Below the pieces are notes generated by a model. The model did no database searches, was not told where the DNA came from, and was given only the letters and a program-made list of their open reading frames with translations. From positions 62,001-126,000 of the forward strand of contig JAKOUY010000029.1 of the NCBI GenBank assembly GCA_029782355.1: a stretch of 64,000 nt of DNA, given 5' to 3'. The stretch comes from Actinomycetes bacterium. GTDB lineage: Bacteria; Actinomycetota; Acidimicrobiia; Acidimicrobiales; Ilumatobacteraceae. Every line of letters begins with the position of its first letter. Positions within the stretch are counted from its first letter, which is position 1. Below are positions 39,144 through 43,105 of the stretch, one piece after another. A program made the translations under genes and the position numbers.

Positions 39144-40154
39144 TCAGTCGGCGTTCGTCGCCACCATCGACGCCGCCCGACGGCGCCTCAGCATCCGCTG
39201 GTGCGCCTCGGGTGAGCCGTCGTGGAAGGAGCCGAACCAGCGGTCGAGGGGGATCACCCCGTCGGCGTAGTTGACCTCGAAGTACTTGTGGTGCAGGTAG
39301 TGGGCGTAGCCGTTGGTGTCCACTGCCAGATGGTCGGTCACCTCGATCTTGGCGAACCCGGCGTGGCCGGGCATCGGCATCAGCCCGGCGTGGAATCCGT
39401 TGAAGAGGGCGTGCAGCGGGTGTGACGGGATCAGCCAGTGGACGGCGATGCAGCTGAAGTAGGCCAGGTGCTCACCCGGGTGCATGGCCAGGCCGGACCA
39501 CGGGCTGACGTTGGTGTTGGTGTGGTGCAGCGAGTGGACGGCGCGATACAGCGGTGGCCAGTGGATCAACCGGTGCACCGCATAGAAGTGAACGTCGCGG
39601 ATGATCGGCACGAGGAGGAACAGGGCCACGAACCACACCGGATGCGCCGACCAGCTGACCCACGGGATGTGATGGTTGGCGAACAGCCACCAGCCGGCGA
39701 CCTCCCATGCCGTCCAGATGGGCACACCGCTGACCAGCGCCCAGAACACGTTGTCGGCCACCTGGTTGCGGAAGCGGAACAGCTCCGAGTTGGTCGACGG
39801 CCAGCGGGCGTTGAACTTGAACCGAGTGCCCTGGTGGCGCCGGCGGTACAGCCACCAGTGAGCGGCACCGAACCAGACGATGGTGATCGCCAGGTTGCGC
39901 AGCAGGATGAGCGCGATCCAGCCGGCGGCGAGGGTGCGCATGGTGGTCATCGGCGGGGTCAACCACCGCCAGCTGGCCAGGGCGACGAGGAAGACCGGCA
40001 GGTGCCAGCCGAGGATGTATCCGGGATAGCCGAGCAGCCACCGGGCGAAGCCCACCGGCCGAGGCGGCCAGACGATGACGGGCGGGTAGGAGGGCCGCTC
40101 GTTGGGCTCGAACCCGCCTTTGCGATTGCGCGTGCCGAACCGCGAGTCGTCCAT
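39144..40154 (-). CDS. Fatty acid hydroxylase/sterol desaturase family membrane protein
   Basis: A di-iron membrane oxygenase of 336 residues. Histidine boxes are HFYAVHRLIHW, LYRAVHSLHHTN and the C-terminal HYLHHKYF, which give the eight or so His ligands. Four to five hydrophobic segments surround them. Such enzymes hydroxylate or desaturate fatty acids, sterols, carotenoids or alkylglycerols in the membrane; the substrate is not visible. I take the ATG at 40154 because GGAGG stands 5 nt before it; a GTG at 40160 would lie inside that ribosome binding site. Convergent with padR. Confidence 0.9.
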   Translation of the reverse strand: MDDSRFGTRNRKGGFEPNERPSYPPVIVWPPRPVGFARWLLGYPGYILGWHLPVFLVALASWRWLTPPMTTMRTLAAGWIALILLRNLAITIVWFGAAHWWLYRRRHQGTRFKFNARWPSTNSELFRFRNQVADNVFWALVSGVPIWTAWEVAGWWLFANHHIPWVSWSAHPVWFVALFLLVPIIRDVHFYAVHRLIHWPPLYRAVHSLHHTNTNVSPWSGLAMHPGEHLAYFSCIAVHWLIPSHPLHALFNGFHAGLMPMPGHAGFAKIEVTDHLAVDTNGYAHYLHHKYFEVNYADGVIPLDRWFGSFHDGSPEAHQRMLRRRRAASMVATNAD

Positions 40155-40197
40155 CGTCACCTCCGAAACCCGAGTGTACGAGGCACCATCGCCCTCC

Positions 40198-40203
40198 TAG
40201 GCT
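40198..40203 (+). promoter_or_regulatory. Putative leaderless -10 element of the ABC-F leader ORF
   Basis: TAGGCT ends 7 nt before the ATG of a three-codon ORF at 40211. This is the same geometry as at authentic leaderless genes in the window. Confidence 0.45.
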
Positions 40204-40210
40204 GACGCCG

Positions 40211-40222
40211 ATGACCGACTGA
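40211..40222 (+). CDS. Three-codon leader ORF (Met-Thr-Asp) before the ABC-F gene
   Basis: ATG ACC GAC TGA begins exactly where a leaderless transcript from TAGGCT would start. A minimal ORF at the 5' end, a hairpin, and then the ribosome binding site of an ABC-F gene is the layout of ribosome-mediated regulation of antibiotic-resistance ABC-F genes. It is an inference from position; the peptide itself has no features. Confidence 0.4.
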   Translation: MTD

Positions 40223-40245
40223 GCACCTGTCCGCGCCCGCCGTCC

Positions 40246-40261
40246 GACACCGCCCGGTGTC
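40246..40261 (+). promoter_or_regulatory. Leader hairpin GACACCG-CC-CGGTGTC upstream of the ABC-F gene
   Basis: A perfect 7-bp inverted repeat with a CC centre lies 23 bp after the leader ORF stop and 11 bp before AGGAAGG. It could act as an attenuator or a ribosome-stall-responsive stem. Confidence 0.4.
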
Positions 40262-40288
40262 CCCGTCCGCCCAGGAAGGTTGCTCGTC

Positions 40289-41947
<1,659 letters not shown>

Positions 41948-41976: not shown

Positions 41977-41982
41977 TAGTCT
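41977..41982 (+). promoter_or_regulatory. Putative leaderless -10 element of the phosphotransferase gene
   Basis: TAGTCT ends 7 nt before the ATG at 41990. Confidence 0.5.
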
Positions 41983-41989
41983 CGCCGGC

Positions 41990-43105
41990 ATGACCGACGA
42001 TCGCCCGCAGACCAGCCGACGTGACCGTGCCGAGCTGCAGCACCGGCTGACGGCGTGGCTGGCCGAGCGCGTCGACCGACCGGTGATCGGCGACCTGAGC
42101 ATCCCGACCACCAACGGCATGTCCAGCGAGACCCTCCTGTTCGACGTGACCCATCAGGGCGCCGACGGGTCGGCGATCACCGATCGATGCGTGGCCCGGC
42201 TCCCACCGGACGCCGACGCCACACCCGTGTTCCCGACCTACGACATGGAGATGCAGTTCCGGGCGATGCAACTCGTCGGGGCGCGCACCGACGCGCCGGT
42301 GCCCGACTGCCTGTGGCTGGAGACCGACCCCGCCGCCCTCGGCGTGCCGTTCTTCGTCATGCGCCGGGTCGACGGCACCGTCCCACCGGACGTGATGCCG
42401 TACACCTTCGGCGGGAACTGGCTGTTCGACGCCACCGCCGACCAGCAGCGGGCGCTGCAGGACGCCAGCGTCGGTGTGCTCGGCGAGATCCACCGGATCG
42501 ACGGCGCCGACCCGGCGGTCGACTTCCTCGCCTCCACCACGGCCGGTCGGTCGCCGCTGCGCGCGCACGTCGACAGCTGGCTGGCGTACCACGACTGGGT
42601 GACCGCCGACGGGCTGACCTCGCCGGTGTGCGCCGCGGCCTTCGAGCATCTCGAGGCGACCTGGCCGCAGGAGACGCCCGCCGTGCTCAGCTGGGGCGAC
42701 TCGCGGGTGGGCAACATGCTGTACCGCGACTTCCTGCCGGTGGCCGTGCTGGACTGGGAGATGGCCGGGATCGCCCCGCGGGAGGTCGACCTCGGTTGGA
42801 TGGTCTACCTCCATCTGTTCTTCCACGACCTGTCCGTGCAGTACGGCATGGGCGGCATGGCGCAGTTCATGCGCTCGGCGGACGTCGTCGCCGAGTACAC
42901 CCGGCGCACCGGCTATCAGCCCGTCGACCTGCGCTGGTTCATCGAGTACGCCGCGGCCCGCCATGCGGTGATCATGTTCCGCATCGCCCGCCGCCAAGCG
43001 GCCTTCGGGGAGGCGGCGATGCCCGACGACCCGGACCTGGCCGTGCCGCACGCTGCCTCGCTGCGGGCGATGATCGACGGCAGCTACTGGGAGCGGATGC
43101 CGTGA
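41990..43105 (+). CDS. Aminoglycoside phosphotransferase-fold kinase (ACAD10/FadE36-like)
   Basis: A protein-kinase-like phosphotransferase of 371 residues. Brenner catalytic loop: LSWGDSRVGNMLY with the catalytic Asp; metal-binding Asp in AVLDWEMAGIAPREVDLGW. FFVMRRVDGTVPPDVMPYTF is the hinge region common to the actinobacterial acyl-CoA-linked group related to the N-terminal part of human ACAD10/11. Proteins of this group act in catabolism of 4-hydroxy acids or other alcohol-bearing acyl chains rather than in antibiotic resistance. The ATG at 41990 is supported by TAGTCT 7 nt upstream. It overlaps the PhyH gene by GTGA, which points to one pathway. Confidence 0.88.
   Translation: MTDDRPQTSRRDRAELQHRLTAWLAERVDRPVIGDLSIPTTNGMSSETLLFDVTHQGADGSAITDRCVARLPPDADATPVFPTYDMEMQFRAMQLVGARTDAPVPDCLWLETDPAALGVPFFVMRRVDGTVPPDVMPYTFGGNWLFDATADQQRALQDASVGVLGEIHRIDGADPAVDFLASTTAGRSPLRAHVDSWLAYHDWVTADGLTSPVCAAAFEHLEATWPQETPAVLSWGDSRVGNMLYRDFLPVAVLDWEMAGIAPREVDLGWMVYLHLFFHDLSVQYGMGGMAQFMRSADVVAEYTRRTGYQPVDLRWFIEYAAARHAVIMFRIARRQAAFGEAAMPDDPDLAVPHAASLRAMIDGSYWERMP

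Follow-up and report, generated by a model that had tools for sequence, protein, structure and literature searches.

What purpose might an open reading frame of three codons serve at the predicted start of an ABC-F mRNA? The question is raised by a locus in the stretch of actinobacterial DNA analysed here (64,000 nucleotides of contig JAKOUY010000029.1, from a member of the Ilumatobacteraceae; hereafter the window). A first-pass annotation had picked out a TAGGCT hexamer, a 7-nt gap, the frame ATG ACC GAC TGA, an AGGAAGG motif and the ATG of an ABC-F gene, and all of these elements are present when the sequence is read directly. On the forward strand they are arranged as GAAACC-CGA-GTGTAC-18 bp-TAGGCT-GACGCCG-ATG ACC GAC TGA. 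The order thus comprises a WhiB7/WblC-type promoter element (40165–40170; offset −33 from the −10 element, matching GAAAWY in five of six letters), a presumed −35 hexamer (40174–40179) whose position fits the WblC geometry and whose sequence is weak, the −10 element TAGGCT (40198–40203) anchored by the positioned GAAAWY element, a 7-nt spacer (40204–40210) and the micro-ORF encoding MTD* (40211–40222), one of a class conserved among orthologues. Judged from the −10 spacing, the mRNA 5′ end would lie at 40211 and the micro-ORF would be leaderless. Its stop codon is separated from the ABC-F start codon by 66 nt of C-rich sequence, closing with the Shine–Dalgarno (SD) motif AGGAAGG (40273–40279) and nine further bases. 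Measured from start to start, the window leader spans 78 nt as compared to a median of 54 nt among orthologues, hence is longer than most.

The gene so preceded (40289–41947, forward strand, 552 amino acids) encodes an ABC-F ATPase, as assigned from NCBIfam, Pfam and a structure model. Two stretches of the protein match Pfam ABC_tran, the best-scoring model is the ribosomal-protection-like ABC-F model NF000355, and the structure model (pLDDT 88) retrieves PoxtA, EttA, Uup and VmlR2 as top Foldseek hits. The NF000355 score of 359.1 bits falls below the curated cut-off of 380 for antibiotic-resistance (ARE) ABC-F proteins, and a role in resistance is only putative. Both neighbouring genes have promoter features of their own. 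A fatty-acid-hydroxylase-like gene starts divergently at 40154 on the minus strand (40152–40178), and because its −10 element TACACT (40178–40173, minus strand) overlaps the ABC-F −35 hexamer, the two promoters probably compete. Downstream, the next gene encodes an APH-like phosphotransferase (ATG at 41990); it looks leaderless because TAGTCT stands 7 nt ahead of its ATG (41977–41990), and its start ATGACCGAC is the same as that of the micro-ORF, at the same −10 spacing.

The first-pass annotation had named the absence of the mini-ORF from relatives as the observation that would speak against it; this was examined in orthologues from the family and the order, the closest of which share about 63% protein identity with the window ABC-F, and it was not borne out. 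A fixed pattern (a −10-like hexamer [TC]ANNNT, 5–8 nt, ATG or GTG, at most four further codons and a stop) matched 53 of the 121 regions upstream of orthologues from the same order, compared to 2.15 ± 1.35 matches per 121 regions in dinucleotide shuffles (maximum 6 in 300 shuffles). Requiring the stop in a wrong frame left 5 and 2 matches, and replacing ATG/GTG by other start triplets left 0–6, with none for CTG and TTG. Among held-out, more divergent orthologues, the pattern recurred in 11 of 40 (controls 0–3); nine of these matches look credible and two resemble chance. For comparison, 200 other SD-led genes whose upstream intergenic space measured 50 nt or more were taken from three genomes of the order, with gene calls made by a simple script; 2 of them showed the pattern, which is about the control level, and on these frequencies the element is, by its sequence pattern, specific to the ABC-F gene. 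It is distributed over at least 15 bacterial families, and an exact copy of ATGACCGACTGA occurs in another genus, there with CACAAT as a different −10 element. Between related species, the identity of the micro-ORF amounts to 67–100% (mostly 83–100%), and the sequence upstream of the promoter (−60 to −36) shows the baseline identity of unrelated sequence. What emerges is a mini-ORF at the predicted 5′ end, kept under strong constraint upstream of ABC-F. A short 5′-leader ORF conserved among orthologues is also to be expected of a uORF attenuator. More than half of the orthologues are without the element. The genome of the window also contains a look-alike, GTGCGCTGA, ahead of a gene for a low-complexity protein; being within the chance rate, it was discarded.

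The promoter offers a probable link to translation stress. WblC promoters are composed of GAAAWY, 3 bp, the −35 element, 16–19 bp and TANNNT, with transcription starting 7–8 bp after the −10 element (PMC7157823), and in mycobacteria an AT-rich promoter element is paired with an AT-hook (PMC3905903). When the promoters of the class were aligned on their −10 elements, an A-rich patch at −32 to −29 and a G at −2 became apparent, the patch coinciding with the location of GAAAWY in WblC/WhiB7 promoters. A match of at least five of six letters to GAAAWY was found at −35 to −31 in 24 of 53 micro-ORF promoters, as opposed to 0–4 in the other 5-nt bins. The window conforms to the arrangement with GAAACC-3-GTGTAC-18-TAGGCT, five of six letters matching and the −35 being weak, and the gap of 6–8 nt between −10 and RTG that characterizes the tabulated set is consistent with the WblC start sites (PMC7157823). 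The genome encodes a WhiB7-like protein (G000 C7:486062-486229, L319) that features EPWGVWGGE and the AT-hook KRPRGRPPK, and similar proteins are encoded in 22 of 30 micro-ORF genomes. From the positioned GAAAWY together with the AT-hook protein, the ABC-F gene is likely a member of a WhiB7-like regulon. Upstream of the gene for this WhiB7-like protein and of its relatives, no GAAAWY/TANNNT autoregulatory pattern was found, and the leader of whiB7 itself revealed no micro-ORF element. Nor did a shared regulon become visible: the WhiB7-type promoter combined with the leaderless pattern gave five matches in the genome, including the window locus, compared to two in the reversed control, and a strict version of the pattern applied to 298 genomes of the order recovered a few ABC-F leaders, the remaining matches being mostly AT-rich and chance-like.

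Which RNA structure, then, could a ribosome at the 5′ end control? The 7-bp hairpin that had been noted upstream of the SD exists, with a stem of 6 bp, GACACC/GGTGTC (40246–40251 and 40256–40261), and a GCCC loop, since a seventh G–C pair would leave a loop of just 2 nt. It is apical in the window leader fold (40246–40261), was not seen in clade alignments and, not being conserved among orthologues, is ruled out as the switch. The whole window leader is not unusually stable (z = −0.71), and RNAalifold returned no consensus fold for the whole-set alignment or for most clade alignments. The more informative feature of the window fold is a long-range helix predicted to mask the SD, in which nt 7–22 of the leader (40217–40232) pair with the SD and everything between it and the ABC-F ATG (40274–40288); its 5′ arm overlaps codon 3 of the micro-ORF, the stop codon and the bases after. 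Pairing of this kind is in excess across the class. In 50 leaders, the predicted pairing between the first 18 nt and the ABC-F initiation region amounts to 0.416 per nt; swapping heads across species lowers this value to 0.229 ± 0.017, and shuffling them to 0.208 ± 0.021. Blocking nt 1–18 raised the accessibility of the initiation region by 0.155, against 0.078 (swapped) and 0.071 (shuffled); in the window, the unpaired fraction increased from 0.24 to 0.51, the window's own rank being 0.08. The excess is limited to the 5′ end, with ratios of 1.74 at offset 0, then 1.48, 1.05 at offset 12 and 0.79 at offset 18. It was positive in 11 of the 11 families tested, members within a family not being independent, and support from the held-out leaders was modest, seven of eight being above the swap mean, one of these only marginally, and the eighth clearly negative. 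Column-wise covariation was absent, changed cells keeping their pairing in 29% of cases at the true register and in 27–32% when slid; the helix thus rests on complementarity within each sequence rather than on compensatory changes, and its register seems to drift between sequences. The earlier suggestion of a structure switchable by a 5′-stalled ribosome gains support from the complementarity analysis, with the masking arm assigned to the mini-ORF itself in pairing with the SD.

Taken together, we think it reasonably probable that the element works as a leaderless attenuator of translation in minimal form, the ABC-F ribosome-binding site becoming exposed once a ribosome halts on the start codon at the 5′ end. 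Within this attenuator reading we infer that the transcript starts at the micro-ORF, that the micro-ORF is translated, that the SD is masked in the cell and that drugs trigger the switch. A WhiB7-type promoter would start the ABC-F mRNA exactly on ATG or GTG, and because the mRNA begins there, a 70S ribosome could initiate at the 5′ terminus without any leader. The ribosome would meet an ORF of 1–5 codons, the start codon counted, whose RNA together with the few bases after would form the 5′ arm of the long-range helix over the ABC-F SD and start codon. The mini-ORF would accordingly double as landing site for leaderless ribosomes and as masking strand for the ABC-F start. Without stress, the ribosome would be done in one to four steps and depart, the helix would re-form and ABC-F would be poorly translated. 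Ribosomes arrested on the start codon or immediately downstream of it, for example by lincosamides, streptogramins A or pleuromutilins, would cover approximately nt 1–18 and so expose the ABC-F SD. The scheme presupposes, by analogy, that the rules of leaderless initiation and start-codon stalling from other bacteria carry over to these organisms.

The architecture of the class bears on an unlikely alternative that nonetheless deserves to be taken seriously, in which the 5′ RTG recruits a 70S ribosome that terminates at once and reaches the SD some 40 nt further on, thus giving a constitutive boost through ribosome loading or reinitiation and sensing nothing. Such a function would be well served by the C-rich spacer, by the tight leader length and by a strong downstream SD in nearly all members (50 of 53 micro-ORF orthologues have an SD before the ABC-F start), and in E. 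coli 5′-terminal AUGs have been found to raise or lower the output of SD-led genes (PMC4965119). In the anatomical tabulation, which covers 53 sequences with 6–8 nt spacing, including one with AAGACT as −10 element, and is not exactly the set of 53 among 121, the distance from the micro-ORF start to the ABC-F start is below 60 nt in 42 of 53, with a standard deviation of 2.7 nt. This distance is independent of ORF length, and it is the distance from stop to start that shrinks as the ORF lengthens. The constancy is therefore one of start to start rather than of stop to start, which speaks against this reading, and an excess of SD masking by the 5′ arm would oppose a loading role.

What the micro-ORFs encode is relevant to a further, improbable explanation, namely that a specific nascent peptide (M-R/K-...) stalls the drug-bound ribosome and the stall opens the leader. 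MRL(R) nascent chains stall drug-bound ribosomes in ErmDL-type leaders. Of 58 second codons in the micro-ORFs, 34 specify Arg or Lys (chance 16%), as do 22 of 42 after collapse by family and peptide, with CGC, CGT, CGA and AGG all used for Arg, and this bias hints that the peptide may matter. Against arrest by a single motif stands the variety of the products: M*, MTD*, ML*, MG*, MAG* and MST* occur in the same place as MR*, MK*, MRL* and MKQQ*. Starts are ATG and GTG in about equal numbers, the stop is TGA in 44 cases, TAG in 5 and TAA in 4, and the length is 1–5 codons with the start counted, 2 or 3 being commonest. Given that all three stops are used and the peptides differ, only "start, then stop" is kept. 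Four of the ORFs are bare start-stop units (GTGTAG in L174, ATGTAG in L180 and L212, ATGTGA in L209), and because these (GUGUAG, AUGUAG and AUGUGA in the RNA) sit where other members have their longer micro-ORFs, sensing under the attenuator reading would be largely peptide-independent. To judge by the sequences, it would not be wholly peptide-dependent, yet the second codon appears to matter in some way. Tentatively, and as something that may well prove otherwise, we suggest that a bare mRNA 5′ terminus consisting of start and stop could sense initiating ribosomes independently of any peptide and directly gate the ABC-F ribosome-binding site, which would constitute a new regulatory class.

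There is also little probability that the ribosome on the 5′ RTG just shields the mRNA from a 5′ exonuclease, such that ABC-F rises under stress with no RNA switch involved; protection of the transcript end would be served by a conserved 5′ RTG at the predicted transcript start and by a leader that fits two ribosomes, but it does not predict the complementarity of nt 1–18 to the initiation region. Several orthologues that are devoid of the element (L113–L115, L120, L125, L147 and others) seem to place a leaderless ABC-F start at the micro-ORF position, which suggests that two 5′-end architectures alternate in the ABC-F family through repeated switching. Although these orthologues speak for a remnant of an ancestral leaderless ABC-F start, an origin of the element as such a remnant, or from an RTG and a stop that happen to lie close to the promoter, can hardly be credited, being strongly disfavoured by the conservation statistics (53 of 121 against 2.2 expected, 11 of 40 held-out, 2 of 200 other genes) and by start and stop being retained while their flanks diverge.

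The proposed attenuator shares individual traits with known systems. Actinobacterial ARE ABC-F attenuators (are5sc, tiaA, lmrC; PMC12421871) likewise have a very short uORF before the ABC-F gene, and are5sc (an ARE5 ABC-F gene of Streptomyces) involves a three-codon uORF, MLV, with start-codon stalling by lincosamide, streptogramin A and pleuromutilin drugs (PMC12421871). Their uORFs have a ribosome-binding site of their own, within leaders of 194–232 nt that adopt terminator and antiterminator forms (PMC12421871); in the micro-ORF class, by contrast, the mRNA is predicted to begin with the ORF, the leader measures about 54 nt (in the window, 78) and the switch is predicted to act by covering the SD. 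In E. coli, 5′-terminal uAUGs bound by 70S ribosomes lie upstream of an SD-led gene, and some alter downstream expression (PMC4965119). These belong to ORFs of 5–26 amino acids at 13 different genes, their regulation unexplained, whereas the micro-ORFs comprise 1–5 codons at one gene, are conserved across families and are probably linked to translation stress. In mycobacteria, experiments have shown that RTG at +1 suffices for leaderless initiation (PMC4633059); the ATG/GTG starts of the micro-ORFs, with CTG and TTG at zero, match the RTG-only rule given there. The same study describes many leaderless small ORFs upstream of genes, many of which run up to the start of the following gene or into it, and the passages considered here mention no family of 1–5 codons before an ABC-F gene (PMC4633059). 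The toiL uORF of E. coli topAI comes close in mechanism in that a ribosome stalled at its start codon (by tetracycline or retapamulin) frees an otherwise masked initiation region further downstream, and it differs in being SD-led and longer, in having peptide-specific stall sites as well, and in its target gene (PMC12121999). The open-access literature yielded uORFs, leaderless uORFs and three-codon ABC-F uORFs; in it we found no conserved leaderless uORF of 1–5 codons that masks an ABC-F start.

If true, the proposal would place these elements among the smallest uORF sensors known, reduced to as little as AUG-stop and operating without ribosome-binding site or peptide motif. It would tie the leaderless initiation of actinobacteria to the sensing of stress, and a leader of about 54 nt would allow the role of a 5′-terminal start codon to be tested directly. 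It would also hint at where similar tiny, unannotated switches might be sought, namely before other ribosome-protection genes.
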